Assembly (NCBI GenBank): GCA_028277985.1
Contig: JANQFG010000005.1
Location: 1 to 64,000, forward strand
Direction of reading: 5' to 3'
Source: a bacterium
GTDB taxonomy: Bacteria > Desulfobacterota > DSWW01
Length of the DNA stretch: 64,000 bases
Of the stretch, positions 8,897 through 38,900 are shown in pieces. Under the pieces are notes generated by a model. The model did no database searches. It saw nothing but the letters and a program-made list of their open reading frames with translations, and was not told where the DNA came from. Every line of letters begins with the position of its first letter. Position 1 is the first letter of the stretch. Both the position numbers and the translations under genes were made by a program.

Positions 8897-9754
8897 TTAT
8901 TCTTTTCCACCGCCGTTGAACGCGTGCAGCATTTCTTCCACCTCGGCGAGGATCGTGGAAGAAACCAGATCGAGCACGTTGTTGTTCAACGGGAGCCTGG
9001 AGCTGATCTTCACCGATGGCTGATAATTCAGCCCATCCACCTCTGTTCCGGTCCCAGTAGAAATACTCAGAATGTCCGCAACATGTATGAGGTCTACCTC
9101 GAGGGAATCCCCTTCGAAATTCTCGGGCTGATGATGCCAACGAACCACATCGACGATATGAGCCGGGAGGCTCCACTGCTCGAAGAGCAGGGCCCCTACC
9201 TCCGCATGATCGATTCCGAGAACCTCTCTCTCCGCCATTTCGAAGGAGTAGTCTTCCTCGTAGGCCAACTGAATGATCGGGTTCGCATCCACCTCCACGA
9301 ATGTCCCCAGCACGGTCTTTCCGACATCGTGCAGAATCGCCGACGTGAAAGTAGACTTCGGCGCCTTCAATTTCATCGTCTCTGCCAGGCGGTTGGCGGC
9401 CAAGGCCACGGTGATCGAGTGCTTCCACAATGTCCCGGCCTCGACGTCGTATCCCCGGACCGGCTTCTCCGAAACACTGCGCGCGAAAGCGGTCATGGTC
9501 AGCTTGAAGGTGTTCTCGGTGCCGAGCCACATGATCGCATCTTTCACAGTGCTCATGGTCTTCGCGCTTCCGAAGTAGGCCGAGTTCGCGAGGCGCAGCA
9601 CGTTTGCACTGAGACCGGAGTCGAGCTCGATGGCACGTGCCAGGTCCCGGATACTGACTTCCGGATCCTGGTAGAGCGCGATCACCTCCCTCGCAGCGGG
9701 CGGCATCGCGTCTATCTCGCCAACCTTGGAAAGAATCTCGTCTCTTCGGCTCAT
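8897..9754 (-). CDS. HDOD domain protein
   Basis: IDAMPPAAREVIALYQDPEVSIRDLARAIELDSGLSANVLRLANSAYFG..HSITVALAANRLAE..AILHDVGKTVLGTF. Confidence 0.88.
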   Translation of the reverse strand: MSRRDEILSKVGEIDAMPPAAREVIALYQDPEVSIRDLARAIELDSGLSANVLRLANSAYFGSAKTMSTVKDAIMWLGTENTFKLTMTAFARSVSEKPVRGYDVEAGTLWKHSITVALAANRLAETMKLKAPKSTFTSAILHDVGKTVLGTFVEVDANPIIQLAYEEDYSFEMAEREVLGIDHAEVGALLFEQWSLPAHIVDVVRWHHQPENFEGDSLEVDLIHVADILSISTGTGTEVDGLNYQPSVKISSRLPLNNNVLDLVSSTILAEVEEMLHAFNGGGKE

Positions 9755-9792
9755 TACAGGTTCTCCTCGGTCCCCATCCTCAGGTTGCTGCC

Positions 9793-10596
9793 CTACCGTT
9801 TCAGGTAGATCGACGGTCTGACAACTTCCAGGTGCATGGACAGACCAACCAGGTTTTCCGAATGGCCGACCATCAGGTATCCACCAGGCCGCAAGAGCCT
9901 CGAAATCTCCTCGAGCAGGTTCTTGCGGACCTCCTTGTCAAAATAGATCATCACATTCCGGCAGAAGACCACATCCAAAGGCCCCTTCATGGGAAAGGGG
10001 GGCTTCGACAGGTTGAGCCTCTTGAATACGATCCGGTCCTTGAGGATCGATTTTGCCCTGTAGACGGCGTCCTCTCCCCTGCCTTCTTTGTCGAAGTAGC
10101 GAGCCTTCAGAGCCTTCGGAACCGTCTCCAGACTCCTCTTCTCGTACTGTCCTACCACACATCTTTCCAGCACTCGGGTCGAGATATCGGTGGCAAGGAT
10201 CCTCATGTCCACCTTCGCGTCCTTCACTGCCTCTAGGAACGTCATTGCGATCGTGTACGGCTCCTCTCCGGTCGAAGACGCGGCCGACCAGAAGCGGAAT
10301 CGCCGCTGTCCCTCGGAGGACCACTTGGAGATCACCTCCGAAAAGAAATCGAAATGATCCGGTTCCCGGAAGAAGCTCGTCACGTTGGTGGAAATCACGT
10401 TGAGAAGCTGCACGAGTTCTTCCCCGCTCTTGTCCCTCCGCACGTACTGGAGGTAGGTTCTGCTGTCCGGCATACCGAGGGCACGAAGCCGCTTCGCCAC
10501 CCGGGCGGACACCATCGCCTCCTTGCCTGCCTGCAGAGAGATGCCGCTTCTTTCGTAGATGAGCTCTTTGAAATCTCTGAACGTCGTTTGGTCCAT
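9793..10596 (-). CDS. cheR: CheR-type methyltransferase
   Basis: FRFWSAASSTGEEPYTIAMTFLEA..ILATDISTRVLE..DVVFCRNVMIYFD. Start set at MDQTTF. Confidence 0.92.
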   Translation of the reverse strand: MDQTTFRDFKELIYERSGISLQAGKEAMVSARVAKRLRALGMPDSRTYLQYVRRDKSGEELVQLLNVISTNVTSFFREPDHFDFFSEVISKWSSEGQRRFRFWSAASSTGEEPYTIAMTFLEAVKDAKVDMRILATDISTRVLERCVVGQYEKRSLETVPKALKARYFDKEGRGEDAVYRAKSILKDRIVFKRLNLSKPPFPMKGPLDVVFCRNVMIYFDKEVRKNLLEEISRLLRPGGYLMVGHSENLVGLSMHLEVVRPSIYLKR

Positions 10597-10773
10597 GATC
10601 CTCACACAGGTGGAGTGCCCGCGACCCCCCGAAACACCTGAAGCCATGGTGTCGGCGGAGCACTTGTTTCCACTTTTCTCATTGATTTCATACGATTAGT
10701 TTCTGCTACGGTATAAAACGTGTTTTATTATTTGCCGTCTTGTCTCACTCCCGAATCAACCTCGTAACTCCTT

Positions 10774-10801
10774 ATATCGGCTACAGAATTTCTTTCATTA
10801 G
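10774..10801 (-). promoter_or_regulatory. Putative sigma28-like promoter driving the cheR-HDOD-cheA-cheD operon: CTAATGAA-N12-GCCGATAT
   Basis: Minus-strand GCCGATAT (10774-10781) preceded by 16 nt and CTAA (10798-10801). Confidence 0.45.
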
Positions 10802-10844
10802 TTTTTTCTTTCTTTTCCCGAGAAAAGCGGTAGGAGTTCAACAG

Positions 10845-10872
10845 TAAAGATGTTTCTCCCAGTCGCCGAAGT
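10845..10872 (+). promoter_or_regulatory. Putative sigma28-like promoter driving the VWA operon: TAAAGATG-N12-GCCGAAGT
   Basis: TAAA at 10845-10848, 16-nt spacer, GCCGAAGT at 10865-10872. Confidence 0.5.
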
Positions 10873-10953
10873 TATTATATTGCAGACCCGGTTCGCTTTC
10901 GTTGCTCTTTGCCGGGAGGAATCGACAGCCCCTTTCGACAGACTGGGAGAACC

Positions 10954-12426
10954 GTGAAAAGAACTTGTTTGGCCGCTCTCTTCTGGGCGCTGGGCGCCCT
11001 ATCGAGCCCTTCCTTCGAGGCCATTGCAGCCGAAGGGGGGATGGACATCGTTCTGGCCATCGACACCTCGGGAAGCATGAAGAAGACCGACCCCCACAAT
11101 CTCAGGGCAGAAGCGGCGAAGCTGTTCATCCACCTGCTCGGGCAGAATGACCGTCTCGGGCTGGTCACTTTTGACACGACAAGCCGCGTCCTTTCGGATT
11201 TGAAAGGGGCCAGAGAAGAGCGCTCCTATCTGATCGACCAACTCCGTCACATCAAGTCGGACGGATTGTACACAAACCTCCACGAGGCGATTCGGTGCTC
11301 CGAGGACATCCTGAAGGCCTCTGCCAGAAAGCGCAGGGCCGTGATCGTCATGACGGACGGCAAGATGGATCTTGGAGACCCGGCCAGAGACCGGGAGCTT
11401 GCGCAACGACTGCAGGACAAACGCCTTCCGGCCATGCGTACCGAAGGTATTCGCGTCTTTTCCATCGCTTTCACCGAGTTTTCGGACATACGGTTCTTGA
11501 AGAGGGTCGCCTTCAGCACGGACGGTTTCTTCTATCTGACCCTGAAAGACGAGGATATTCATGTCACCTTCACGGACATATACGATCATATGCTCGCGCC
11601 CGACGCCCTTCCTATTCGGAAGGAGAAATTCTACGTCGACCGTTCGGTGAAGGAACTCGACATCGTCATCACAAAGGAGGATCCTCATACCGGCATCGCC
11701 CTGGAAATGCCGGATCGGCGCATGCTGACTCTGGCAAAACACCCACGCAACGTGCGATGGCATCAATCCAGAGCCTTTGAGATGATCAGCATCGCTGAAC
11801 CCCTGGTCGGGTCCTGGCGAATACAGTACGGCGCGGACAAGGGGAACCGGATCTTCATTCTGACGGATCTCAAGCTCATGACCGCCTTTCCTGACGGGTT
11901 GGTGCCGCCCGACACGGAAGTGAAACTGGAGGTCTGGCTCCACGAGGGCCCTGTGACCTTGGAACGCAAGCCAGTGTCGATAAAAGACGTGAAGATAACC
12001 GCTAAGATCGTTCCCTCGGGTGAAGAGGGCATTGCGATTCCGCTCTACGACGATGGCACGAACGGAGATTTGGAGGCTGGGGACGGCGTCTATGCAGCGA
12101 TGATCAAGCCTACGAGGCGAGGCGAGCACATGCTGCACGTTGGAGCCCACGGGCTCACCTTCGAGAGAGAGAAGAACCTCGCCTTCTATGTCCCGGAGAA
12201 AGAACTCGAGGATACGCTGCCCCCAACCGAAGATTTGCAGCCCCTGAACGAGCACGCATTGCCGGATGTGGAGGCGATGCCCTTACAGGACGGCGCTCCG
12301 GGCACAGATTGGCGGAGCGTGCTTCTAAGGTTTCTTGCGATCAATGCCGTCCTTGCCCTTATCCTGTCTGTCACTCTCATCCTGAGGCGACGAAGAGCCC
12401 AGAGCGGTGAGGCCAAGAAATCATGA
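10954..12426 (+). CDS. Secreted/membrane VWA domain protein with C-terminal TM helix
   Basis: GTG start gives signal peptide VKRTCLAALFWALGALSSPSFEAIAA. MIDAS motif DIVLAIDTSGSMKKTD; C-terminal LLRFLAINAVLALILSVTLILRRRRAQ. Confidence 0.88.
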   Translation: MKRTCLAALFWALGALSSPSFEAIAAEGGMDIVLAIDTSGSMKKTDPHNLRAEAAKLFIHLLGQNDRLGLVTFDTTSRVLSDLKGAREERSYLIDQLRHIKSDGLYTNLHEAIRCSEDILKASARKRRAVIVMTDGKMDLGDPARDRELAQRLQDKRLPAMRTEGIRVFSIAFTEFSDIRFLKRVAFSTDGFFYLTLKDEDIHVTFTDIYDHMLAPDALPIRKEKFYVDRSVKELDIVITKEDPHTGIALEMPDRRMLTLAKHPRNVRWHQSRAFEMISIAEPLVGSWRIQYGADKGNRIFILTDLKLMTAFPDGLVPPDTEVKLEVWLHEGPVTLERKPVSIKDVKITAKIVPSGEEGIAIPLYDDGTNGDLEAGDGVYAAMIKPTRRGEHMLHVGAHGLTFEREKNLAFYVPEKELEDTLPPTEDLQPLNEHALPDVEAMPLQDGAPGTDWRSVLLRFLAINAVLALILSVTLILRRRRAQSGEAKKS

Positions 12427-14317: not shown

Positions 14318-14667
14318 CCTTCCCCCTTTTTTCGGTCAGGCCCCGCCTCGGAAAACCGAAAAGTCTCTTTTGAAGCCGTTCAACCCTTATAATCAATATT
14401 ATATTTGGTATTCCACGTGTGTGCAAGGGCCTCCCCATTCGTTATACCTGCCGCCGAAACATCTCGGCAGGAAATAGAACAGGAAGAACGACTCTCTGAA
14501 ACAACTCTTGACACGCTCATCCAACAAATCCTATTCTCAGAATACCGTTGTGGGTTTCATATCTTTTTCTATGATCGTTCCACCACCATCTCTGTCTCCG
14601 CGTTCAACCACCCTCGGTCGTACGCTTCCCAGCAGGCCGCATGCACCACCACAACGGATCGACCCTG

Positions 14668-14786
14668 GTTACGGCACCCAGAGTAAGGCAAAGCCACACC
14701 AGCCGTGAGGCTGGGCCGGAAAGCCACGGGTCTCGTCGCAATCTCGCCCGCCAGCCGAGACAGCCGGGCTGCCAGCACGTATAGCG
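14668..14786 (+). ncRNA. GEMM-I-type cyclic-dinucleotide riboswitch (c-di-GMP-I, or cGAMP-sensing variant)
   Basis: gagtaaggcaaagcc..ccagcc-GTGA-ggctgg (GNRA-capped stem)..ggaaagccacgggtct..gagacagccgggctgcc matches the GEMM core and its tetraloop-receptor layout. Confidence 0.82.
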
Positions 14787-14859
14787 CCGGATTTGTGTTC
14801 TGTCTCATCGATTCCAATGGGTCCAAAAAAGTCTCAGGAGGACAGAAAGGAGACGCGAC

Positions 14860-15159
14860 ATGATTATCCTTACGATCTCGTCATTTCCGCCGGAAAGTGC
14901 AAGAGAGATAGGCAAACGCTTCATGGAGAGGGGCTCCCTGCCGGATTACATCAAAATGCGAGGTCCTTATGTCCTGCCTCGTCAGGCAGAGGGCATCCAG
15001 AGCATGACCTTGTACGAGGTCGACCGGCCCACCCGCATGGCGGAAGCCGTTGAGCTCCTCGCCAACGAACAGGCAAAATACTTCGGCACACCGGGGTACA
15101 CGTATTCCATCAACGTGTGTCTCGAAGCGGAAGAGGCGCTGAAGACGATCGGTCTCTAG
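14860..15159 (+). CDS. Conserved-looking 99-aa protein of unknown function downstream of the GEMM riboswitch
   Basis: MIILTISSFPPESAREIGKRFMERGSLPDYIKMRGPYVLP..; good RBS (aaaggagacgcgac-ATG). Confidence 0.8.
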   Translation: MIILTISSFPPESAREIGKRFMERGSLPDYIKMRGPYVLPRQAEGIQSMTLYEVDRPTRMAEAVELLANEQAKYFGTPGYTYSINVCLEAEEALKTIGL

Positions 15160-15191
15160 AGGGCGGGCCGTCATGGCCGGCACCTGAGGAT

Positions 15192-16589
15192 CTACACGCC
15201 TCGAAGAAATCTCCGGTACTTCTTCAGCCTGTACCGAAACGTGCTCTCCGGAAGGCCGAGAAGCTTTGCTGCGTGAGATTTGTTTCCCTTTGCCTTCAAC
15301 AGGGCGCTCCGGTATTCCGAGGCCAGCTGCTCTTCCACGGCATCCACCAGATCCTCGTCCTCGACTCCCACCATCCTATGCGTCCTGGCCCCATCACGGG
15401 CCAGGGCGAGAAGGGAGGTCGTGAAGTCGTCCGAGGACAGGGTCCTTGCCTTGGTGGAGATCACGGCCCGAGCCAGCACATTCTCAAGTTCTCTGACATT
15501 TCCGGGCCAATCGTGCTCCTCGAGCCTTGCTAGGGCAGAGGGGAGAAGCGTAACGGCCGGTTTGCCGTGTTTCCGGCAGTACTTTTCCAGGAAATAGGAG
15601 ACGAGGATCGGAATGTCCTCCTTCCGCTCGCGGAGGGGCGGAATCCTAATGGGAAGTATGTTCAGACGATAGAACAGGTCCTTACGGAAGGAGCCTTCCG
15701 TGACCGCATCGGAGAGGTCCCTGTTCGCCGCAGCGATGACCCGGGACTCGAGTTCGATCTCCGTGTTGCCACCCACCCTATGAACGGTCTTCTCCTCCAC
15801 GGCGTGAAGAAGCTTGATCTGCAGGTCCACAGGAATCTCGGCCACCTCGTCGAGGAAGACCGTACCCGCACCCGCATACTCGAACTTGCCGAGCTTGAAA
15901 TCCTTTGCCCCGGTAAAAGCGCCCTTCTCATGACCGAAGAGCTCGCTTTCGATGATGGTTCGGGACAATGCTGCGCAGTTCACGTGGACAAAAGGCTCGT
16001 CTCTCCGGTCGCTCCGCTGGTGAATCGCTCTGGCGACGACGCCTTTGCCGGCTCCCGTTTCTCCCGTGATCAGGACGTTCTCATCGATGCTCGCTGCGTA
16101 CAGAATCCCCTTGAAAACCTTCTTCATGGCCCTGGAACTCCCGACGAGGCCCTCGGGCCCGAAGGATTCGCTCCCGTCCGCCTCCAATTCACTCACCTTC
16201 CTCTCCAGGAGGTGCTTGTAGAGCGCACGTTCGACCACGATTGCGAGGACGTCCGGATTCACCGGTTTCAGTAGAAAATCCTCGGCACCGAACCGTATGC
16301 ATTCGATTGCGTCGTCCACCTTGCCTTGCCCGGTCATCACGATGATCTTGTTCCCCTCTCCTGCAACGAGGCACTCCTTGAAGAACTCGACCCCGTCGCG
16401 GACCGCGTATGACGGAGGCAGGGCCAGATCCAGCAGAAGAAGATCCGGCTTGATCCGATTGAGCTTCTCTCTGCCCTCCTCCCTGTCGGGCGCGATATGA
16501 ATCTCATAGCCCGAAGGCTCCAGGAGATCGCGGATCGACTCAGCGAGATACTCTTCGTCCTCGATAATCAAGATTTTCTCGTTTGCCAT
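15192..16589 (-). CDS. Sigma54-dependent response regulator (NtrC family)
   Basis: Receiver domain, AAA+ with GETGAGKG and GAFTGA, C-terminal Fis-type helix-turn-helix (KSHAAKLLGLPESTFRYRLKKYR). Confidence 0.95.
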   Translation of the reverse strand: MANEKILIIEDEEYLAESIRDLLEPSGYEIHIAPDREEGREKLNRIKPDLLLLDLALPPSYAVRDGVEFFKECLVAGEGNKIIVMTGQGKVDDAIECIRFGAEDFLLKPVNPDVLAIVVERALYKHLLERKVSELEADGSESFGPEGLVGSSRAMKKVFKGILYAASIDENVLITGETGAGKGVVARAIHQRSDRRDEPFVHVNCAALSRTIIESELFGHEKGAFTGAKDFKLGKFEYAGAGTVFLDEVAEIPVDLQIKLLHAVEEKTVHRVGGNTEIELESRVIAAANRDLSDAVTEGSFRKDLFYRLNILPIRIPPLRERKEDIPILVSYFLEKYCRKHGKPAVTLLPSALARLEEHDWPGNVRELENVLARAVISTKARTLSSDDFTTSLLALARDGARTHRMVGVEDEDLVDAVEEQLASEYRSALLKAKGNKSHAAKLLGLPESTFRYRLKKYRRFLRGV

Positions 16590-20340: not shown

Positions 20341-21030
20341 TCAGGGCGACAGTGGTCTCTGGAGATCCTCCAGCATGCTTCTGACCGACGAAGAGTCCGC
20401 GGAAGGGTGCTCGCTGAGATAGGCGGTTGCAAGCGCCGTTACACGGGCGGCCGCAAAGCTGTTCCCCTTCAGGTTCATTTCCTGCGGAAGGCCGGGGATG
20501 GCCCTGGGCCTCCCATAGGCGCCGAACTCAACCGGCATGTGCGGGTGGTGGACCACCGAGCCTTGCTCGCACGAGGAATTCCAGTAGACCCCGATGACGG
20601 TCCGCAGGCACGCCGGAAGGACATCGTCTTCAGGCCCCCTGGCGGCTGCGACGATCACGATGTCCCGTTCGTCCGCTTCCTTGCAGAGGCGGGCCAGATC
20701 CCCCCTGACACCAGGCTGTTCCGTCCCAAGGCTCAGGTGGATGATCTTCGAGTCGATCCGGATGGCCCTCTCCAGCGCGGCAAGCAGAACCGCGGACGAG
20801 GCGTAGAGCTCTCGGTGAAAGATTTTGAAAGCCTGCAGCCTCGCCGAAGGAGACCGTTCGCGAATGACCCCCGCGATGGCTGTCCCGTGTCCCAGTTCGT
20901 CCTGGTAGTCTTCACTCTCCTCCACCCCTCCCGACTCGCCGAGCAGAAAGGAGCGTCCGCCTTCCACACCCTGCACATGCGAATGCCATGGATTGACGCC
21001 GCTGTCGACTATGGTGACTCGGATTCCCAT
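20341..21030 (-). CDS. Short subtilisin-like (S8) serine protease without signal peptide; QhpE-like
   Basis: VTIVDSGVN (Asp), LGHGTAIAGVI (His), GNSFAAARVTALATAYL (Ser); 229 aa, no signal peptide. Confidence 0.82.
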   Translation of the reverse strand: MGIRVTIVDSGVNPWHSHVQGVEGGRSFLLGESGGVEESEDYQDELGHGTAIAGVIRERSPSARLQAFKIFHRELYASSAVLLAALERAIRIDSKIIHLSLGTEQPGVRGDLARLCKEADERDIVIVAAARGPEDDVLPACLRTVIGVYWNSSCEQGSVVHHPHMPVEFGAYGRPRAIPGLPQEMNLKGNSFAAARVTALATAYLSEHPSADSSSVRSMLEDLQRPLSP

Positions 21031-21038
21031 CGATTTGC

Positions 21039-22748
21039 TCAGAGACCGATCGAGTTTTCCGCTGCCTTGTCAAACGGGCCGTCATAAACCAGCCCGCTCG
21101 CGTCCAGGGAAATCAGCTTGTCCGCCCCTTCAATGGCCGAAGCCCGGTGACTGACCACGACCACTGTCGTGTCCCGCATGAGTGCTCGCAGCGTCTGCTT
21201 CAGCCGTTCTTCGATCGACGGGTCCAGAAAAGCAGTGGCCTCGTCGAGGATCAGCACCCGGGGAGAGGTGAGGAGCGACCGTGCGATGCTGATCCTTTGC
21301 TTTTGTCCACCCGAGAGCCGAACGCCACGGTCCCCGACAACGGTCTCGTACCCTTCGGGCAGGGATTCGATAAAATCGTGGATACAAGCCGCCTTCGCCG
21401 CATCCAGAATCTGCTCCCGGGTTGCCCCGGGTTTCGAATATCGTATGTTCTCTAGGATCGTGGTGTGAAAGAGGAAGGTATCCTGGGATACGAGGGCGAT
21501 CTGGCGGCGGAGCCAATCAGGGTCCAGATCGCGCAGGTCGGTTCGGTCCATGGTGATCCTGCCGGAATCCGGGTCAAAGAGCCTCATGATCAGGTGGCAC
21601 ATCGTGGTCTTTCCCACACCGCTCGGGCCTACCACGGCATTAACACTCGCCGGAAGAATCTCAAAGGAGACACCTCGCAGCACCGGCTCTTCGCTCTCGT
21701 ATGCAAACGAAACGTTCTCAAACGTGATGGCGCCGCGGAAAGCTTCCCCTTCCAGAACCTTGGTCCCTCCCTGTTTAAAGGCGGGAGGGATGTCAAGGAT
21801 CTCTCTTACCCGCTGCAGGGCCACTTTGGATGTCTGGAGGCCGAGGTACCCTTCCATCAGGCCCTGCAAGGGACCGAACAGCCGCCCCTGATAGATCGTG
21901 AAGGCGACCAGGCTCCCGATCGTAAGGTTTCCACCGATCACCAGGTAGCCTCCGTAGCCAAAGACCACGATTGTATTGACGATCGAATAAAGGGTGGGGA
22001 CCGACCCGGACCAGGCGCCGAGAATCTGGTACCGCAAGAGCAGCTTGAGCACCCCTGACTGCTTCTCTTCCAGCCTCTCGGTCTCGACCGTTTCCGCGCC
22101 AAAGGCCCGGATCAATGCGATTCCGGTCAGAGACTCATACAGGAAGTGCGCGATGTCCGCGTTGCTCTCCGCCACTTTCCTGGCAAGGTCCAGCAGTCTG
22201 GGTCGGATCGCGCGGAGGATGTACACGGCCAGGGGCAGGAAACCCAGGCTCAGGAGGGCCATGCGCCAGTTGAGCCAGAACAGGATGCCCGCGGTGATCA
22301 CACAGGTAAGGGAATTGAAGAGGAGGTTCGGCACCAGCTCGGTGAGCAGGGACTGGATGTCGGCCATGTCCGAGGCGATCCGGGAGTAGAGGTCTCCGAC
22401 CTTACGCTTGGAGTAAAGGCTCAACGGCACCCGGTGGAGGTGGGCGAAGAGATCCTCCCGCATTCGGAACAGGAGCCGGGCTGAGTATCGCATGTAGATG
22501 TAACCGTTGCCCACACGAATGACGAACCCGATGGCGACCAAGGCGATGACCGCGCCGAGGATCTTGACGAGAAGATCCGGACGATTGCCTATGAGCACCT
22601 TGTCGATCAGGATCTTTGCAAACAGCGGCTGGACCATTCCCAGGGCCGTGCTGACCGCGCTCAGTGAAAAAGAGAGGAGCAGCACCTTCTTGTGGGGTCG
22701 AAGGTACTTTCCAAGGTAGGAGATCTGCTGTCGTGCGTTTTCCCGCAT
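21039..22748 (-). CDS. ABC exporter, fused TMD-NBD; QhpF-like
   Basis: Walker A VGPSGVGKTT, signature LSGGQKQR, Walker B VLILDEATAFLD; N-terminal TM domain. Confidence 0.92.
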   Translation of the reverse strand: MRENARQQISYLGKYLRPHKKVLLLSFSLSAVSTALGMVQPLFAKILIDKVLIGNRPDLLVKILGAVIALVAIGFVIRVGNGYIYMRYSARLLFRMREDLFAHLHRVPLSLYSKRKVGDLYSRIASDMADIQSLLTELVPNLLFNSLTCVITAGILFWLNWRMALLSLGFLPLAVYILRAIRPRLLDLARKVAESNADIAHFLYESLTGIALIRAFGAETVETERLEEKQSGVLKLLLRYQILGAWSGSVPTLYSIVNTIVVFGYGGYLVIGGNLTIGSLVAFTIYQGRLFGPLQGLMEGYLGLQTSKVALQRVREILDIPPAFKQGGTKVLEGEAFRGAITFENVSFAYESEEPVLRGVSFEILPASVNAVVGPSGVGKTTMCHLIMRLFDPDSGRITMDRTDLRDLDPDWLRRQIALVSQDTFLFHTTILENIRYSKPGATREQILDAAKAACIHDFIESLPEGYETVVGDRGVRLSGGQKQRISIARSLLTSPRVLILDEATAFLDPSIEERLKQTLRALMRDTTVVVVSHRASAIEGADKLISLDASGLVYDGPFDKAAENSIGL

Positions 22749-22751
22749 TTC

Positions 22752-23744
22752 TCATGATCCCCGGAAATAGCACATGTAGCCCTTGTCGCAATACTCGGGC
22801 GTATCCCGGAGGGAACGGGCAAAGGAGGCGATCTCGTCGTGGGAGGCGCCTTCCTTCGCCTTGTCCACCACGGCGCGGACGAGTTGCAGGCTCGCCATCT
22901 TACGGACGAAGGAGGCCTCCCGTCCAATAACCTTCACGGACGTCACGCCCCAGTCTCGAAAGTGGCCGAACCAGCAGAGGCTGCAAGGACCGTTCGGCAG
23001 ACCATGGTGCTGGAAGGAGGAGCCGCAGTTGTTCTGGTACCAGAGGTACTCGCGCAACTCCTTCCGGTGCTCTTCGACTTCGTCGGGAGAGATGCCCGCC
23101 CTCCCCTCTCCCTGCACCTCGACCTCCCATTCCGTGAGGCAGAAAGGGCCGCCCAGGACGTGCGTGGTCTGACAGAAGCCCTCTTCAAAATAGCACCCGT
23201 CGTTGACGGCGAAGACCTCGAACTCCATGCCGGTCGGGTTCCTGCTGACGATCCCTTCGATCTCAGAGCCTCTGAGCTGTCTCGGCAGAATGATCCGGTC
23301 GATCCCGAGGCCCGAGTAGAACCAAACCGCCCAGGTGTTGGTGCAGGCGCCCACGCTGCTCAGATGGACGCGGGCCGGCAGCTCCGAGTCGGCCAGAAGC
23401 ATGAGGAAATTGAGATCACTCACGATGAAACCGTCTACCGCGAGCTCGGCGGAGAGCCGCTCGGCCAGCTTGAGCAGGTAGTGCATTCCCCCGTCCGTGT
23501 AGAACGGGGCGTTCAAGGTGATGTAGATCGGAACCCTTGCCGGACGCGCCAGATCGACGACCTCCTGGATCTCCTCCCAGGAAACCAGGTTGGCACCCAC
23601 CGGGCTCCTGCGGTTCATCCACCATCGGCCGCCGAAATGCTCCTCCCACTCAGGCGTAGCCACGCCGCAGTAGAGTTCGTCTGCTCCGAAATGCAAGAGC
23701 ATTTCCACTTCCCGCGGCGAGCTGACCGGTGCGACGATTTTCAT
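22752..23744 (-). CDS. U32 peptidase-family protein
   Basis: MKIVAPVSSPREVEMLLHFGADELYCGV start; Cys-rich C-terminal half (NDGCYFEEGFC..PFC..NNC..GPCSLCWFG). Confidence 0.82.
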   Translation of the reverse strand: MKIVAPVSSPREVEMLLHFGADELYCGVATPEWEEHFGGRWWMNRRSPVGANLVSWEEIQEVVDLARPARVPIYITLNAPFYTDGGMHYLLKLAERLSAELAVDGFIVSDLNFLMLLADSELPARVHLSSVGACTNTWAVWFYSGLGIDRIILPRQLRGSEIEGIVSRNPTGMEFEVFAVNDGCYFEEGFCQTTHVLGGPFCLTEWEVEVQGEGRAGISPDEVEEHRKELREYLWYQNNCGSSFQHHGLPNGPCSLCWFGHFRDWGVTSVKVIGREASFVRKMASLQLVRAVVDKAKEGASHDEIASFARSLRDTPEYCDKGYMCYFRGS

Positions 23745-24640
23745 GAGACTCCTATGGCCAGGCCTTGATAGACGCAGCGAACTTCTCGGCCCTTGGTCCA
23801 TGTAAGAAAAGAGGACAGCAGGGAGGCAGGGTACCGGTAGAAGATCGCGTTGCCTTCCTGCAGGAGTTTCAAATTGCTCTTCGCGTCGGTTAGACACAAG
23901 GAAGCATCACGACAGGATCTACCGCATGTGTCAGCAAGAGAGAATTTGGTCGCCGGACTCCGTTCGAAGGAGGCAAGCCAGCAAACCCTGCCCATGGAGA
24001 CGTACCCGAACGGAACGTAGACCGAAGTAGCCAACCCGTGCGGCACATTCCACCTGGGGGCTCCGTGGGGAAGCAGGTCCCGCTCGAAACGGCTCACGTG
24101 GAGACGAACCATCTCACCCTGGAATCGGGGCGAATCAAAGGTGGAACGGTTCAGCAGGGCTTCAGCCTCCTCGGACATACGCGCGAAGGCAGCTGGGTCC
24201 GGCAGTCGCGGATCCTTGAATCCCTTGTTCAGCAGTCTCCCGAGCGAGAGACGCAGGGACGGATGCCTTGCTCTCAGGAGTTGAAGTGTGCCCCAGTCAT
24301 TCACCACGACTTCGGCCTCGAGTCGTTGATCATCCAGACGATCGAACAGGGGCGCGCACATCTCCAGGCCTTCATCCGTAGCCGGGGGCGTAAGAAGAGT
24401 GACCGCCCACGAACGGGCCTCCGCCAGCCGGGTAAAGGCATCCAGTGTCTCGACATCCACCAGCCGATGCAGACAGAACTCGTCCCCCACGTAAACGCGT
24501 CGGCATGCGTCCATCAAGGATGTGCTCTGGAGTGTCTCCCCGAGGGACTCTCCCGGGAACAACTCTGTCCATTGCCCGTCGAACGCATCGATGGATTCCA
24601 TCTGAGACGGTTCTCTGAGGTGGACTGCCAGCTCTACCAT
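23741..24640 (-). CDS. Second, divergent U32-family protein (UbiV-like)
   Basis: VVNDWGTLQLLRARHPSLRLSLGRLLNKGFKDPRL and Cys cluster GRVCW..DTCGRSCRDASLC. ATGA stop/start overlap with the next U32 gene. Confidence 0.72.
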   Translation of the reverse strand: MVELAVHLREPSQMESIDAFDGQWTELFPGESLGETLQSTSLMDACRRVYVGDEFCLHRLVDVETLDAFTRLAEARSWAVTLLTPPATDEGLEMCAPLFDRLDDQRLEAEVVVNDWGTLQLLRARHPSLRLSLGRLLNKGFKDPRLPDPAAFARMSEEAEALLNRSTFDSPRFQGEMVRLHVSRFERDLLPHGAPRWNVPHGLATSVYVPFGYVSMGRVCWLASFERSPATKFSLADTCGRSCRDASLCLTDAKSNLKLLQEGNAIFYRYPASLLSSFLTWTKGREVRCVYQGLAIGVS

Positions 24641-24686: not shown

Positions 24687-26114
24687 TTACCCAGGGTGGC
24701 CTCTTGATGCGCAGAGCATCTCGAGCACATCCGGGCTCGTTGCCGCGAGGCGGCAGTAAACGTCCAGGCCGATCTCACCCCAGCGTCTGATCCAATCACA
24801 GTAGTGGAGATTCGGCTTCAAGTGACTTCCCTCCCGAACGCAGGCCTCGTGGTAACAACCGCCCGTACAGATCGTGCGGGCCCAACAGCTCCGGCACTCT
24901 TCCTTGTTGCTGATTTCCGCATCCCTGCGAAACCTGCTCAGCTTCTCGGTGTCGAATCCGTTGAAGATGTCGCCCATGCAGAACGTCTCTTCGCCGGTGA
25001 ATCGCTGGCAGAGAAAGAGCTTTCCTTCCGGGTCCGCAGAGAAGAGGCCCAGGCCGGCGCCGCAGGGGTAGTTCATCAGCTCGCCCTGGTGGAGAGCCAC
25101 AAGGATCTCGATCAAGTTGGAAAAACCGAAGAACCTCTCCTCCTGGACCGCCTCGAGGAAACGTTCCGAGAGATTCCGGAATACCTTGAGCAGCTCGTCC
25201 ATCTGTTGCTCACTGAGCCGGTACTCCGGATGACCCGTCGTGACCGGCGCAAAGCCCACTTCCACGAACCCGAGCCCAAGCAGGTGATCCAGGGTTTCGG
25301 GCACCCTCTCCGGCTCGTCCACTACCGTCACCCTGGCGGCGACCGGGCGCTTCCGGGAACGGTCGATCAGGTGCTGCACTCTTGGGAGGATCACCCCGTA
25401 GGAGGGGCGATCATCATGAAACCTGCGGTATCGATCGTGAAGCTCAGGGGATCCGTCCAGACTGACCGTGATCGACACATCCTGCTTCTGGAGAAAGTCG
25501 ACGATCTCCGGCGTTAACAGGGTCCCATTGGTAGTGATTGCGAAGCTAATACGCTTGCCCGAGGCGGCTGCTTCCGTGCGAGCATACCCCGCAATTTCTT
25601 TGATGATCTCGAAATTGAGCAGAGGCTCGCCCCCGAAGAAGACGAGCACCAGATCTTGCAGCCCACCCGATCTCTCGAACAGAAAATCGACCGCCCGGAA
25701 CGCTACTTCCCGGCTCATCTTCCGAGGGGGTTGGGCCCGCTCTCCCTTCTCGGCGTGATAGCAGTAGCTGCACTGCAGGTTGCAGGCCTCGGCCACGTGC
25801 AGGATGAGCGTCTTGAGCGGAATGTCCGTGGGCGGAGTGAAGCCTTGCGGTCCGGAAGCCCGGGGGTCTATAGCAGGGAGGACTGCCCGGCGCTTCAGCA
25901 GGGCGTCAAAGAGTTCCTCACCCTCATCGTGGGGCATGCCGTGCAGAGAGGCGAGCGCCTCTTCGCGGGTGAACTCCTGCCCGGAGTCCCACTCCCTCAG
26001 CAGGGCGATGGTCTCCGGATCCGCCTCGAAGACCGCCTTGTCCGCGACCAGGAAGAGGAAGTCCCGCCCATCCGATTCGACCCTTCTGTATTCTGCCACC
26101 CGATATTTCTTCAT
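24687..26114 (-). CDS. Radical SAM/SPASM peptide maturase (QhpD/PeaB-like)
   Basis: CNLQCSYCY (CxxxCxxC), FFGGEPLLNFE, SPASM cysteines YPCGAGLGLFSADPEGKLFLCQRF..CRSCWARTICTGGCYHEAC..HYCDW. Confidence 0.92.
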   Translation of the reverse strand: MKKYRVAEYRRVESDGRDFLFLVADKAVFEADPETIALLREWDSGQEFTREEALASLHGMPHDEGEELFDALLKRRAVLPAIDPRASGPQGFTPPTDIPLKTLILHVAEACNLQCSYCYHAEKGERAQPPRKMSREVAFRAVDFLFERSGGLQDLVLVFFGGEPLLNFEIIKEIAGYARTEAAASGKRISFAITTNGTLLTPEIVDFLQKQDVSITVSLDGSPELHDRYRRFHDDRPSYGVILPRVQHLIDRSRKRPVAARVTVVDEPERVPETLDHLLGLGFVEVGFAPVTTGHPEYRLSEQQMDELLKVFRNLSERFLEAVQEERFFGFSNLIEILVALHQGELMNYPCGAGLGLFSADPEGKLFLCQRFTGEETFCMGDIFNGFDTEKLSRFRRDAEISNKEECRSCWARTICTGGCYHEACVREGSHLKPNLHYCDWIRRWGEIGLDVYCRLAATSPDVLEMLCASRGHPG

Positions 26115-26273
26115 TCCTAGGAGGTTTCCACATGCGCACCCAATTTTCAAATCACCCACATCCCACCCTCCCCTCCCCCACCCCTCCTTGGGGTCGGACC
26201 AAGCCAAGTGCGCCAATACCAAACGAAACATGTCCGAGAAGCCCCCAGAATAGACGTTAGAGGCGGCGCTCAG

Positions 26274-28676: not shown

Positions 28677-29432
28677 ATGCCTCGCGCTCTTAGACATTAT
28701 CTTCCTGGCTATCTCTGGCACCTTACTCACCGCTGCCACGAGAATTCGTATCTACTCAACTACGACACCGATCGTAAACGATACCTCTACTGGCTTTTTC
28801 AGGCCAGGAAACGTTACGGCCTTTGTGTCCTAAACTACATGATCACCTCGAACCACGTGCATCTTCTTGTCAAGGACACTGGCGATGGGGTCATTTCCCG
28901 TTCAATGCAACTCGTCGCGGGGAGAGTTGCACAGGCATTCAACTCGAGACGGGGCAGAAGCGGCGCCTTTTGGCAAGACCGCTATCATGCAACCGCCGTT
29001 GAAGATAACCACCACTTCGTCCATGCTGTGATCTATGTTGACTTGAATATGGTGCGGGCCGGGGTTGTCTCTCACCCCGATCAATGGCCATTCTGTGGAT
29101 ATCACGAGTTGATAACCAGGAGACAAAGATATTCAATCGTCAACCGCGGGGAGTTGATGCGAGTGTTGGACATCAGCAATGAGCCGGCTCTGGTGGCAAT
29201 GAGACGGAATTGGATTGATGACGCACTCGACAAAGGTCCACCCTGCCGTGAGGAAAAATGGACACATAGCCTGGCTGTGGGTGGACCGGCGTTCCTGGAA
29301 ACGATGAAGAAAGAATTAGGACCCAGAGCCCGGGGCAGACAGATACAGTTCGACGATCGGGTGGCAGCAGGTATGATCAAGGAGAACTGCGGTGTTTACA
29401 GTCAATCCGCGGGCGGAAAAAATGGCCTCTAA
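28677..29432 (+). mobile_element. REP-associated tyrosine transposase (RAYT/TnpA-REP, Y1 family)
   Basis: LPGYLWHLTHRCHENSYL..YMITSNHVHLLVK..GAFWQDRYHATAVEDNHHFVHAVIYVDLNMVRAGVV. Confidence 0.9.
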
Positions 29433-29916: not shown

Positions 29917-32900
29917 ATGAATAACAAGAGATCACCGTGGCTCATCGCCCTGACCGTCTGCCTCGGACTGCTCATCCATTCGACGTCCGCCGGCGCTCTC
30001 GACATATCCATAACCGACACGGGATTTCAGCCCGCCTCCGTCACAATCCTTGCGGGTGAGGGAGTCCACTGGACGAATGACTCCGGTGACACCCAAACCG
30101 TCACTGCCGACGGCGGCCTGTTCGATTCCGGCCCCCTGCAACCCGGAGCCGGTTTCAGCGTGGCCCTCGCAATTCCCGGAGTACACACCTACCGCTCATC
30201 TTCGAATCCGGATTTCGAAGCCAGGTTCCACGTCGTTCTCGAGGAGCTTTCGGCAGATGACGACGCGCTGGCAAACGACCACATACCCGACATCACCTTT
30301 CCCCTTCAACTCGCTGACGATATGTCCCCGCACCCCGATTGGGGCTTCCTCACGTCCAGAACCCGCATCTTGCTCGGTTTTACGGATACGGCAACGGTGA
30401 CCCAGGCGAACGCCGCCCTCCAAGCAGCAACTGTGGCAATCATAGGTGGTCTGCCTGAGGTCGACATTCTCCTCGTAGCGGCCCAGGACACGCCGGACTT
30501 CTCTGGCCTCACAGCTGCACTCGACACCCTTCGCGCGGATCCGGCGGTAGATTTCGCTGCCATTTCTTCTGAGATGGAACTCCAAGAGCTTCCCAGGCCC
30601 GCGGACGAAACCACCGGCAAACCACCGTACAACTGGACATGGGCAAGGACGGAAACCGCAAGCGGCGATCCGCTGGGCGACACCGGCAACTGGAACCTGG
30701 AGGCCTCGCGGCTACCTCAAGCCTGGAACCTCCGGGAAACCATCCAGAGAAGGGGTCACGTCGAATCTACACGCACAGCCGTCGTTGACAGCGGATTCGA
30801 ACCACATGAAGACATGATTGGAACACGCTCTGAACACGTGCTGTGCAAACCTACACCGGATGGTCCCAAGTGCACGACGAGCGAGCCGGGTGATCACGGC
30901 CAACTCGTTACAGGTATCATCGCGGCGGTCTACGACAATGACTCTGTCGAAGAGGGGCGCTCCCTTGGGTTGAGTGGTGTCAACCCTGTCGCACGCGTAT
31001 CTGCTCTCGAATACGGATTCGAAGGCGGCACGGATGCCTTCGCGGATCTTCTCGAAATCATCAAGCTGGTGGCAGAGGAACTCTCCGACATCAAGGTTGT
31101 TAATCTCAGTGTCAAGCATTCTGTTCCTCATGCCGTCCCGGGCGATCAACCCTGGTGGGACAGCCAGGGCGTGTTTCCGGTCTGCGGTCCGGGTGACAAT
31201 GACGACAACACAGCAGGGGCCAATGATTTCTGTACCCCGAACAACGACGACGATTGGCTGGAGGAAATGGCGAATCTCGGGAAGGCCACCCGAAATATCG
31301 CAGAGTATGCTTCTCAGAAGGGCATCATAATCGTCCAGGCCGCCGGCAACGACAGTGGTCAAACCACACCAGGGCTCCCTAAATCCACTTTTTGTCTCGG
31401 CAGCGGCGTGAATGTTGAGGGCTGCACCTTTGAGAGATTGAAGGCGGTCAACGTCGCGGAATTCGCCTGGGCATCCGAGAACTGGGTCAATCCTGCCATT
31501 GCCAACCCTATCATCATCGTAGAAGCCATTGGAATCGACCTGGGCCGCTCGGTTTACTCCAATATTGAGGGCGACGTATCAGCACCCGCCGACGACCTGG
31601 TCAAATTAGCCCTGGATAACCTTTATGCCCAAAAGGGGGCAGGCGGCACATCCTCGGCCACGCCCCATGTCGCGGGCCTTGTCGGATACATGTCCGCCTT
31701 CGACCCCTCTCTCACCATAGATCAGATCAAAGACCATTTGCTTGGATGGGCACGGGCCGACACGACAGATGGAGCCGAATCGCGTATCGACGCCTTCGCT
31801 ACCATGCTCTCGCTTCCTGGAGCTGCCAAGGCCCTTGTGGACGTAAACGACATGTCCAAGGACGGCAACCGGCGCGTAGTCCTGGGCCCCCCGGACCCGG
31901 ACAATCTGGGTGGAGTCGAGTTGGGTCTCGATATGACCTCGAGCAGCGACATCGACCCCAGCACGGGCACGTGGTACCGCACGCACCCTGACGGCATAAT
32001 TGACATGCGTGACTTCCGCCGCTTCCGCGATGTGAGGCTTCAGCTTTGCGAGAAGCTCCCTCCGGGCACAGGAGAGTGCATCGACATTGCCGATTCCGCT
32101 GATATTCAACTCAACGGTCCCCCCGACCATCCAAAGAAGGACTTGAACTTCGATCGATGCGTCAACCAGGGTTCCAGCGACCCCGACTGCCCCACCTCGG
32201 AGAACGTATTCCCAAGGTTCGACTTCAATGGCGACGGCGTGTTCTCGCGTTCTGACCTTGCCACGGTCCCTCTCAAACCGGATGGCAGCCCAGCGGACGA
32301 CAAGCTCGACGAGACCCTGATGACAGACCTGGAAGTCCTCATGAGCCAATGGGACCCGGATCTCGAAAAAACCGAGGGCTACGCAGCCTCCGACCTGCCC
32401 GGCTTGCTGCTCTCGGCAGATCTGGAAATCCACGCTCAGGACTTGTTCGGTGAGGGTGCGGGCGACGTGACGGTCACGATCATTCGTCCGGACACGAACA
32501 CGGCTCTGCCTACACGCACGATTCCTGTCGGGGATTTCATCGTCTACACCGTTCCGGCAGACGTCTACCTCGAGATTAACGCCTCGGCCATGGTTGGAAG
32601 CGAGCTGATCGAGGCAGCTCCGTATATACTCTCAGTTCGTCCGGGAGTCGATGTTCGATTTGAATTGTGCAGACGAAATCTCAACCTTATCGCCAGCCCC
32701 GCAACCCTGCTGGCCGACGGTGCTGCCGAATCCTCAATTGCCCTTACTCTCCAGCCCTGCCCAACAGACTCTCTCGAGGATGCCGTAGTCACCTTTACGC
32801 AAACTCCCGGCGGACCTAACCACGGCTCTCTCCAGTACTCGACGGTCGGTCTGGATCCGGACGGAACCGCCACCAACGTCTTCACTGCCGGCACCGAAGT

Positions 32901-35900
32901 GGCGGATTACGAGATCACTGCAGTGGCGACCCTCAAGAACGGCAAACAAGTGCAGGGCACGGTCAGTCTGAAGACCACGAATCCGGTCAAGATATTCTAC
33001 AACTGGCAGCAGACCATCCTGAACTTCAGCGAAGAGGGTTCCAGTCGCTGGCCCCCCATGGATCCGACAGACCCAGCGCAAGACATCCGGTGCGGCAAAG
33101 CGACCATTCGGGGCACGGTGTTCGACCCCTTGACACCACCCCACGACCCGGTGGAAGGAGCAATCGTTGAGGTGCTCGGCGTTGATGGAACGCGTGCGGC
33201 TACCAACGCCGACGGCTTCTTCCTCATCGACGATGTCGGTTTGGGCGCGAACAACTCACCCATCCAGGTAACCGTCCGTGCAACAACACCCGACTTCACG
33301 GTAGACAAGACCGTGACGGTATTCTGCGATGCATCCCTCCTGGTCGAATTCGGTCAACCGCCATCAGCCCCGGCAAGATTAGAGGGCAGTGTTCTCGATG
33401 CGACGGGCGCCCCGTTGGCGGGCGTGTTCATCGGTAGCGACTTCGGCGGCTCCACGACTACCAACCTCTCGGGGAATTATGCCCTGGAAGATGTGCCGAC
33501 CAGCCCGAACGGGGTCCAACGCACCTGGAACGTGACCGCCAGAGCATCGGGCCTCATGCCGAATCGTCAAGCCGTTTCTGTATGGGAAGGCTCGGTCGAT
33601 GAGCTTGACTTCCAGCTGGGCATTGGCGATTGCGATGACTTCGTCATTCACGAATTCCAACTCACCCAGGATCGCCTGCACAGCGAATTCGGCGATCTTG
33701 TTGAAGGCGGGAACATCACCAAGTTCAGGGTGTATCAAGACGGGACCGAAATCGCCACCTATGGAATGGAAGGCACACTACCACCCCCTGTCGAGATTGT
33801 GCCCGCCGGCACAATCGGATGGGAGGAATGTGTCAACGATTTCAAGTTTGATGCCTTTCCCACCTCGGACGCCTTTCCCGGCTTTCCTCCCCCGCATCTG
33901 ACGCTGAAGCGGCAAGGTAGCCTGGAGCAGGCGGGCAGCGCCATGCTTCTCGACGAATTCGTGACAGACTCCATGGTATCAGGGACGTTTGATTGGCAGA
34001 ACAGCGGCTCGCAAGCACCTGCTGACGGCGCGATGCCCACTCAGCAGTTCGCAGGCACCGTTGCCATGGCCATTCCCTTTGATCAGCTCGAACGCTACCA
34101 GGACCACGCGCTCCCGTCGACTGTCTTCATGGATACTGTCCCGGAAGGACTGCGACTTCACGGCTTGAAGGAGATCGCAGAACTTGAGTACCCATACGAG
34201 TCAAGCTGGACATTCACCGAAGCCTTTATGGAAGGGATGCCTCCATTCGTTACACCCTTCACGCACTACAGCATAGGCTTCGGTGACGTCCCCGACAGCT
34301 CGGGCGCGATGAAGGCCGGCACGCATCAATCCGAGCTGATGTTTATTCCGCGGGGGGACGGTTCAGCGCTGAAGTTTTCCGGCGATGTCTCCCAACCTGT
34401 GACATTCAAACCGGATGGCGCGGGCGGCTACGAAAAATACGAATACTGTGAGGTGGTCGACCGGCAATACACCTCAAGCCATGAGTACTTCACTGCCCTC
34501 GATATTGTTCAAGATGGGATCCATAGCACGCGGCTCTGGAGGCGCAACTCGACCTACTACGGTGTATCCAATAACGATCTCTACGTTTTCACCTCTTCAA
34601 GCTCCAGTAAATCGTGGCAACATGAGTATCCCATGCCGGTTGGCCCGGGCAACTCGAAAATCCGCTATGCCTTTGTTGCGATTCCGTACACCGATGAAGC
34701 CGAATTGGAGGCACTCATACTAAGCGGCCTTTTGGATCCCCCTTCTTGTGAAGAAACTCCATCCCTGGAGGCGCTGTTTGACGCAACCCCCAACCCTGCC
34801 GACGAAGGGTCCCTCGTCTCCTTCACCGACCAGTCCTTGAGTCCTGGAAACTCCATCGTCTCCTGGGATTGGGACCTCGGTAACGGCGATACCAGCGTCG
34901 AGCAAGATCCCGCAACCTTCTACAATGACAACGGTACATATCAAGTCGATCTGACAGTCGTAGACGCCACGGGCGCCATCAGTGTCGCCTCCATGGACGT
35001 GACGGTCACCAATCTTCCGCCTGAGGGCCAGGTGGGCGATGCCTTCGCCAATGAAGGCGAAACGGTGGACATCACCGTGCTCCTGGCCGACCCCGGAGAA
35101 GACGACCGACAGGCCCTCGCTTTTCGTCTGGAGTCAACCAATTCCGCCTTTCCAGTGATAGAAGACACCCGGGCCGCTGGAATCCACACATTCTCTATCG
35201 GTGGCCTGCCCGCGGGCGACTATCCGCTTACCCTGACGGTCACGGACAAGGACGGCGCCAGCGATACCGACAGCGGCCTGGTTCAGATTCTCGGCTCCGG
35301 CACACCTCCACCACCGCCGCCGCCACCGCCACCGCCGACCCCGACCTGCGATCCCTCGATCAGCCTGGACGGAGAGGAAAAGGCCTTCCTGGACCTCTTG
35401 AATGCCTATCGTGCACAGAAGGGGCTCCCCCCCGTGGAAGCATCCCCTGGTCTTACGAAGGCGGCTGTTCGTCATGCGTCGGACATGGCGGCCAACGACT
35501 TCCTCGATCACATGGGCTCCGACGGCAGCACGCCGGAACAACGGGCCCAGGAGGAGGGATACCCCTCGAACAATGTCAGCGAGAACGTGGCTTCCGGCCT
35601 GCCCGACGGCAACACTCTGCTATTCGCGTTCATGGCTTCCGCAGGTCATGATCAGGTCATGCTCGATCCCCTGTGGAACGCCGTCGGTATTGCTCGCGAA
35701 CAGGGGGCCGACTGGTACTGGACCGTCGACTTCGGGGAGACACTCGATTGCCCATTGGCTAGGGCTTTGCCTGGTGAAAGCCCGGCTTCTCTATACGCCT
35801 CTGCGGCGGCTCGCGATTGGGATCATTTCGTATCCAACCCTCCTGCCATTCCCGAGAACGTACGGGTTCTGCAGTATGGGGGTGGGGATGATCCGCCGTC

Positions 35901-38900
35901 TGTCTTGTACCCGCCTGTTGCCGCCTTCGTGATCTCTGACGCAAGCCCCATGGAAGCAGAGACCTTAACCTTTACGAATGCATCTCGAGACGCCTCCGGA
36001 AGCCTGGTCTCCGCCATCCTGAACGTGGGTGACGGGAGTGACCCGGTTCTCCTCGGCCCCGGCGCGAACCATGACCACACCTACAACACGGATGGAAATC
36101 TCAATGTCAGTGTCACGGCGACTACCACGTATGGGGATACACTCACGGTAACGCGCCCCGTTTTCGTAGAAGCAGCCGAGGAACCTCCTCCACCTCCCGG
36201 GGATTTCAACGTCCTCATTTCACCATCTAGCCAAACATTTGCGCCTGGAAGCGGCTCGAACTTCGTTGTCACTGTTACAGCCATCAACGACTTTTCTGCT
36301 CCCGTCACCTTGAGCGTGGCGGCTCTTCCCTATGGAATCACCGCCCAATTCTCTCCGCCTACTCTTACGCCTTCGGCCTCCTCGTCCCTTCTCGTGACGG
36401 CGACCGATGACGCGGACACGGGAGACTTCGACCTCAACGTGACGGCCACGGGTGGCGGCATCACTCACACAACGAGCAGCTCGGTCTCGGTCGAATTCGG
36501 ACTGATCCCGATCTGCACAGGCACACTGGAAGGTGTGGTCACCGATACGGTTACGGGCAATCCCATCGCCAACGCCAGGGTCTCCAAGTCATATACAGGA
36601 AGCCCTCTCGATATATTCGCCGACAGCAACGGCCATTACACCATGACCGGCCTCCCGCTCGGCGTCAACAACTCCCCCCAAACGACCTCGCTCTGGGGAC
36701 TGGCAGATGGATATTGGTATGCCAACGGGTTAGGCACGGCCGCCTGCGGAGAAGTGAACACCCTGGACATCCAACTGGTTCCTATGAAATACGGAACGAT
36801 CAGCGGTTTTGTCCGGGTAGGCACACCCGATCCGAACGACCTGACCGAGAATCGCTCCGTAACGCCCACGGACGTGCCGATTGAAGGCGCCACGGTTTCC
36901 CTCAACAACAACACTGTCTTTTCAACCGACGCCGCGGGCTTCTACGGAGGCGGGTCCATTCAATTGGGCTACAACAACGAGCCGGTGGTCTATTCTCCCT
37001 CGGTTGCAGCCGACGGTTACTGGCACCCGGCGGGTTGGAATCCCGTAACGATCGAGGCGGACAAGAACACGGTGGCAGACTTCGTCCTGGTTCCCAAATG
37101 CACCGGCACCATATCCGGAAAGCTGATATTCGGCGACACGGGCCAACCCATAGCCAACGCCACGCTAAGGGCCACCCGCACCGTATGGGACTACAAATTC
37201 TACGATACCGTCACCAATGCAAACGGCGAGTTCTCTTTTGCCGACATCGAGCTGAGCTACAACAACGCAAGCGCTTCGTACACCATCACACTCCAATACC
37301 CTTATCTCTCGGAATACGCACCTCTTGAGGTCTACGTCCTACTGGAACGTTGCGGCGATCATCTCATCGAGGACCTGTCCCTGCAAGCGCGTGTATCGAA
37401 CTACGGCGCACTTGAGGGACATGTCACCGATATCGAGACGGGCGATCCCGTGGCCGACGCTCGGGTGGCTTTTCGGAGCTACAACCCAAATGTTTACAGA
37501 TCGGACCAGGCCGACACCGACGGTGCATACAGGATAGAGACCATCTTCCTTGGTTATGACGACCAGACCTCCAACACCGGCTCCGCCACCGCCAGCCACA
37601 ATGATTTCTGGAGCAGTTCCTCGCCTCCGATCACCGTGAACAGCGGGGAGACCTCAACAGCGGACTTTGAGCTGCTGCGAAAGAAGTTCGGTTACGTTGC
37701 CGGAACGGTTCGCAACGCAGCGACGCAGGAACCTATTGCCGGTGCCACCTTTACCTTTATCGCGGCCGAGCCCTCCCAGGAGGACGGCTCATACCAGAGC
37801 GGCCCGATCAGCCTGAATACAGGAAACACCCCAAGGCAAGTAGGTGTCCGGGCTTCTGCAGACGGCTACTGGGACAAGTTCGTACAGACAACCGTGAGCG
37901 CCGACCAGACGACGACCGTCGACATCGACATGATAGAGGTCTGCCAGAGCGCAACCATTGTAGGCTTTGTGTACGATGCCTCGACCCAGGAGCCTATCGA
38001 GGGAGCGGCCATCAGTATTACCCCATCGAGCGGGATCGGCTGGAAGTACACGGACCAGGACGGCAACTTCATCGTCGAGGACATTACGGTAGGGACCGAC
38101 AACTCACCCCTTGATGTAACTGTCTCGGTTTATGCTACAGGCTATTATTCTCAGAGCAAGACGGTGACGATATTCTGCGGCGCCACGATTACCGCAGAGT
38201 TCGGCCATCCCTCCACCGACACCGGGACCATTGAGGGAACGGTCACCAATCTGGACACGGGCCAGCCCATGGGCGGCGTCTTCATCGGCAGTGGGTTCGG
38301 GGGTTCCGCGACCACGGACTCCCAGGGATACTACATCCTGCCCGATGCCCCGCTGAGCGCCGGCAACACAGACCGTGACTGGCAGGTCACTGCCATCCCG
38401 GATAGCTTCCCGCCCCTCAGCCAGACCGTAACCGTGCAGGCGAACACGACGGTTACCCTCGATTTCGAGTTCGGCGGGTCGGCGAACCAATCCCCGGACC
38501 TGGACCCGGTCGGAGATCAGGTGATAGCCGAAGGGGAGACTCTCGATGTCGCCATATTCGCGGACGACCCGGACGGAGACACGATCACGCTCTGGGCCGC
38601 AGGGCTGCCTGCCTTTGCGGACTTCACGGACCATGGCGGCGGCCTGGGAACGCTGACCCTGGCCCCAGCCTTTGGCGACATGGGTGAGTATCCCGTTGTG
38701 GAGATCTTCGCCTCTGACGGGGACCTCTCTGATAAGGAAACCTTCACGATCTCCGTCCTGGAGGGGAACCAGCCTCCTGTAGCTGTGGCGGGAGGTCCGT
38801 ATACAGCGAATGAAGGCGATACGATCACCCTGGACGGGTCCGGCTCCTCCGATCCCGCTGATGACAGCCTCAGCTACCACTGGCAATTCGAATCCGAGAG

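Follow-up and report, generated by a model that had tools for sequence, protein, structure and literature searches.

A qhp-linked pair of U32-type proteins as a candidate O2-independent replacement for the hydroxylase QhpG

Results

Two overlapping U32-type genes lie among qhp-like maturation genes

The window, that is, the whole 64,000-nucleotide stretch of DNA that was analyzed, carries on its - strand two adjacent genes, here named U32-A (UbiV-like; 24640-23741, 299 aa) and U32-B (UbiU-like; 23744-22752, 330 aa). They share an ATGA at 23744-23741, in which the TGA of U32-A (23743-23741) overlaps the ATG of U32-B (23744-23742), as a preliminary description of this DNA had stated, and the C-terminal cysteine cluster that it attributed to each protein is present in both. 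Its assignment of the tandem proteins to the U32 family holds for U32-B, which matches PF01136 (Peptidase_U32) with 94.3 bits (curated cut-off 22.4), and needs qualification for U32-A, for which searches of Pfam and NCBIfam gave no match. The top NCBIfam match of U32-B is UbiU (NF047963), at 67.6 bits, and does not reach the equivalog cut-off of 440.

We compared the two proteins with known U32 families at the profile level. U32-B matches the UbiU profile (E 2.8e-38) and is also kin to TrhP and RlhA (E 5.8e-26 and 1.1e-20). U32-A matches the UbiV family in profile-profile comparison with E 2.5e-6, the UbiU profile with E 1.5e-5, and the U32-B profile with E 1.4e-10; its single-sequence comparison with Escherichia coli UbiV is not significant (E 0.11). 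As judged from sequence comparison, U32-A is a remote homologue of U32 proteins, with a kinship visible solely through profile-profile comparison. Confident single-chain models were obtained for U32-A (pLDDT 90, pTM 0.90) and U32-B (pLDDT 88.5). The best PDB fold match of the U32-B model is the U32 peptidase 5D88 (E 3e-9); for U32-A, the PDB yielded only weak fold matches, none at E <= 0.001, and no close solved structure.

In transcription order on the - strand, the cluster reads QhpD-like, U32-A, U32-B, QhpF-like, QhpE-like. The QhpD-like radical SAM/SPASM maturase (24687-26126) has TIGR03906 (quino_hemo_SAM) as the top of 78 families, with 419 bits over positions 2-465 of 467, slightly short of the cut-off of 453, and contains PF04055 (68.5 bits). 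QhpD forms the Cys-Asp/Glu thioethers in QhpC. The QhpF-like ABC exporter (21039-22748; PF00664 and PF00005) holds the same operon position as in the qhp operons of other genomes, and the QhpE-like subtilisin protease, assigned to leader removal (20341-21030), has NF049966 (QH_SP) as its top match, with 149 bits (cut-off 165), and PF00082 at 45.8 bits. We required QhpD, QhpE and an exporter, together with a QhpC in the genome, to speak of Qhp maturation; all are found, with the QhpD and QhpE top matches somewhat below their equivalog cut-offs, and the Qhp-type setting implied in the preliminary description is thereby borne out by the three neighbors. No UbiT (SCP2 protein) lies beside the U32 pair in the window, where the flanking genes are QhpD- and QhpF-like. 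Elsewhere in the window, a 3585-aa protein (29917-40674, + strand) contains repeated stretches resembling carboxypeptidase-regulatory and PKD domains by eye, and a small transposase-like ORF (28677-29432) lies near it.

QhpC is present with an intact CTQ site and QhpG is not detected

The window genome is a draft (8.85 Mb in 291 contigs, 95.7% complete, 7.9% contamination). Contigs 123 and 49 each carry a QhpC (PF08992) above cut-off, and a search for the heme domain of QhpA gave a single hit. Both QhpC loci show the order qhpA-qhpC-qhpB; in the second, qhpA is truncated or incomplete. By eye, no QhpD-, QhpF- or QhpE-like protein was recognized at these two stretches, so that the window cluster is probably a maturation module common to both, which associates the U32 pair with maturation rather than with the enzyme itself.

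To QhpC from the window genome and a Cupriavidus reference we added 52 sequences from loci carrying the pair (n = 54). The CTQ tryptophan is present in 54/54, the cysteines and Asp/Glu acceptors of the thioethers are intact, and the CTQ cysteine is retained in 53/54. One QhpC, at locus L022:5698-6012 (the same sequence region as L071), has Thr at the CTQ cysteine position (TTDMYCWW) and keeps the CTQ tryptophan; a tryptophylquinone lacking the cysteine crosslink is possible there, as far as the residues alone can tell.

The flavoprotein QhpG introduces two oxygen atoms, both from O2, into the CTQ tryptophan and, by binding QhpC, also promotes crosslinking by QhpD (PMC7876137). Since any FAD protein matches at E <= 0.001, QhpG was called only at the curated cut-off of NF049967 (240 bits). 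No protein of the window genome exceeds it, the best reaching 104.9 bits. We considered a divergent QhpG and rejected it, as both best candidates score higher as proteins of the geranylgeranyl-reductase family.

Most ligand cysteines of UbiU and UbiV are conserved in the pair

The cluster ligands of the E. coli proteins have been defined by mutation as C39, C180, C193 and C197 in UbiV and C169, C176, C193 and C232 in UbiU (PMC6747719). All four UbiV ligands are matched in U32-A, by C56, C220, C239 and C243, respectively; the last three are found in 87/87 sequences and C56 in all 84 that extend that far. In U32-B, C184, C191 and C202 correspond to UbiU C169, C176 and C193 and are invariant (87/87). 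The counterpart of the remaining UbiU ligand, C232, is ambiguous: C240 is present in only 67 of the 87 sequences and C254/C257 in all of them, and the fourth ligand is therefore uncertain. Non-conservation of the ligands, which would have counted against the preliminary description, is thus not observed, with four of four UbiV and three of four UbiU ligands accounted for. Besides C254 and C257, U32-B has conserved cysteines at C319 and C325 (86/87, with one gap). These four extra cysteines suggest a putative second metal site, for which there is no Fe-S evidence.

The pair and QhpG show complementary distributions

Searching genomes, one per species, with a U32-B profile yielded 114 relatives; we retained 80 loci for analysis. 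They come from Desulfobacterota (Thermodesulfobacteriota), Acidobacteriota, Myxococcota, Nitrospinota, Bacillota and Pseudomonadota. U32-A adjoins U32-B in every one of the 80, most commonly with an exact 4-base overlap, so the tandem arrangement is not due to chance. At least one qhp gene is found in 62/80 loci, in several arrangements and at least five phyla; all four of qhpA, B, C and D occur in 51 of the 80, where the pair may lie between qhpB and qhpF, follow qhpE or precede qhpA. One U32-B, at L026:6489-7259 (- strand), has an in-frame stop within an otherwise conserved stretch, reflecting a sequencing error or a pseudogene.

A tungsten aldehyde oxidoreductase-like protein, identified by eye, is encoded within or next to many qhp operons that carry the pair (L021, at about 14425-16135; L024, L026 and L027; also L073, L077, L095, L098, L106, L107 and L124), in several operons between or after qhpF/qhpE. 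It could oxidize the aldehyde that the amine dehydrogenase releases.

We then asked how the pair is distributed with respect to QhpG. Among 395 genomes of the window's own phylum, eight, the window genome included, carry QhpC above cut-off; all eight have the pair and none has QhpG above cut-off. In six of the seven others the operon, resolved by six-frame scans, reads qhpA-D-C-B-U32A-U32B-qhpF-(gene)-qhpE, and in the seventh U32-B lies on a separate contig (439 bits). A scan of 399 Pseudomonadota genomes took as its center Aromatoleum evansii, a carrier of the pair that lacks QhpG. It identified six other genomes with QhpC; QhpG is encoded in each of the six (407-588 bits) and the pair in none, the best U32 match being 71 bits. 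For these QhpC-sampled genomes (8 versus 6), Fisher's exact test gives p 3e-4, a value that ignores relatedness and compares groups that are also two phyla. Plasmid records with QhpC contain true UbiU only and no qhp-type U32 pair.

The exclusion is not absolute. QhpG is encoded in 4 of the 51 pair loci that hold qhpA, B, C and D, and in 9 of 50 whole genomes chosen for carrying the pair (41 have none); these nine include Thauera and Aromatoleum tolulyticum. The pair is present and QhpG absent in A. evansii, A. toluvorans and A. anaerobium. Co-occurrence in most clusters, which would have refuted the proposed replacement of QhpG, is therefore not seen. Hosts of the pair include Aneurinibacillus and soil acidobacteria, which are not anaerobes. 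The preliminary description had proposed an anaerobic version of Qhp maturation; given these hosts, "O2-independent", which it also used, fits better than "anaerobic".

Qhp-linked pairs form a clade of their own, beside a Clostridial branch

In a phylogenetic tree, the U32-B clade stands apart from UbiU, TrhP and RlhA with full support, the outgroup branches being long. Every sampled qhp-linked pair falls into one group (97/95), and beside all of them (90/79) branches a Clostridial clade of pairs from Desulfotruncus, Desulfosporosinus and Peptococcaceae (loci L072, L076, L079, L081 and L110, each with the pair at about 9000-11000, and L086). No qhp genes lie within about 20 kb of these Clostridial pairs, and none of five of the genomes (that of L086 was left out) contains QhpC, so that the link between the family and CTQ is not complete.

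Discussion

Hydroxylation is the sole Qhp step that lacks a homologue here, and U32 proteins hydroxylate aromatic rings without O2, which together lead us to propose that the pair replaces QhpG. More specifically, we propose, with a probability of roughly 85%, that U32-A and U32-B add both oxygens to the CTQ tryptophan of QhpC without O2; heterodimer formation, the clusters, the hydroxylation itself, the oxygen donor and the order of steps are all inferred. The observations behind this reading are the gene architecture, the linkage to qhp genes, the conserved ligands, the substrate site, the absence of QhpG and the complementary distribution. The last of these, with the intact CTQ site, also supports the earlier suggestion of a replacement for QhpG, the chemistry itself being undemonstrated.

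In the proposed pathway, QhpD would crosslink QhpC first, and the U32 pair would then hydroxylate the indole at C6 and C7. Each subunit probably holds a [4Fe-4S] cluster, with perhaps a second one in U32-B, an inference from the cysteines, and the oxygen would most likely come from prephenate, by analogy with proposals for other U32 hydroxylases. QhpE would then remove the leader, QhpF would export the product, and CTQ would be completed in the periplasmic enzyme. UbiU-UbiV are established 4Fe-4S, O2-independent hydroxylases (PMC6747719), and prephenate is the oxygen source of O2-independent ubiquinone synthesis and has been suggested for RNA hydroxylation (PMC11574389). Going by a title cited in PMC11231019, QHNDH starts anaerobic amine degradation in Aromatoleum aromaticum, and, as far as a title can carry the point, an O2-independent route to CTQ would be required there.

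The pair resembles E. coli UbiU-UbiV, a stable heterodimer with one 4Fe-4S cluster per protein, in being a tandem of U32-type proteins, about 330 and 300 aa long, in which all four UbiV and three of the four UbiU ligand cysteines are matched. It differs in its reversed order (UbiV-like first), its separate clade, its qhp linkage without UbiT and the four extra cysteines of U32-B, and its proposed substrate is a protein tryptophan instead of a lipid phenol. TrhP and RlhA share the U32 domain and are kin to U32-B, but are single, longer proteins of a different clade that act on RNA. With QhpG (NF049967) the pair shares the proposed step, the substrate and the operon type, whereas QhpG is an unrelated, FAD- and O2-dependent protein. 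Compared with the qhpABCDEFG operon of Paracoccus, Pseudomonas and Cupriavidus, the window genome has the functions of QhpA to QhpF; the U32 pair takes the place of QhpG, and the two copies of the structural genes lie on contigs other than that of the maturation cluster.

Linkage by itself does not identify a step, and the pair may serve Qhp maturation in another way, by aiding QhpD crosslinking, processing the leader as a peptidase or acting as a chaperone, with an unlinked, unknown enzyme performing the hydroxylation. U32 proteins were originally named peptidases, and QhpG too aids crosslinking through its binding to QhpC. We nevertheless regard this as unlikely, because QhpD-, QhpE- and QhpF-like genes all adjoin the pair and leave hydroxylation alone without an enzyme, because the pair and QhpG are complementary in distribution, and because the pair carries the cysteines of the UbiU/UbiV hydroxylases.

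It is more improbable still that we are dealing with an ordinary UbiU/UbiV, TrhP or RlhA that lies beside qhp genes by accident. UbiU is indeed the top NCBIfam match of U32-B and the cysteines align, but the score is far below the equivalog cut-off, the clade is distinct from all three families with full support, qhp linkage recurs in 62 of the 80 loci, and the window has no UbiT gene adjacent to the pair, in contrast to the true UbiU genes of plasmid records, which adjoin an SCP2/UbiT gene. The Clostridial sister clade, without nearby qhp genes and without QhpC in five genomes, leaves room for a wider system of unknown substrate in which CTQ is one use or a side effect and the Clostridial orphans represent the older state. 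To this we give equally little credence: the sampled qhp-linked members cluster together, their linkage persists through rearrangement, and a wider system would be compatible with the pair's serving CTQ formation in the window. O2-independent hydroxylation of QhpC by the U32 pair remains the reading that we prefer, and its weak points are the absence of biochemistry and of a heterodimer model, the fourth UbiU ligand without a clear single counterpart, the remote homology between U32-A and UbiV, the Clostridial pairs without QhpC, the nine genomes that have both the pair and QhpG, the hosts that are not anaerobes, the small QhpC-sampled comparison across different phyla and the draft state of the genome. 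Among the papers searched, none contains both "cysteine tryptophylquinone" and "U32", and prior notice in the 2019 work on anaerobic QHNDH is not excluded.

In a broader frame, we consider it likely that the pair represents a new two-protein U32 subfamily that occurs in five phyla or more and is the first one known to hydroxylate a protein side chain, converting tryptophan to the CTQ quinone precursor without O2 from an organic oxygen donor, with a separate Clostridial branch acting on another substrate. The formation of tryptophylquinone cofactors has so far been attributed to a hydroxylase that depends on O2, yet QHNDH is reported to function in a denitrifier under anoxia, and qhp operons occur in lineages of sulfate and metal reducers. 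If our proposal is true, the pair would be the missing enzyme for tryptophylquinone formation under anoxia, the reach of U32 hydroxylases would extend beyond lipids and RNA to protein, and QhpC would offer a soluble, genetically encoded substrate with which to probe the poorly understood chemistry of the U32 family, notably its oxygen donor and the role of its clusters.
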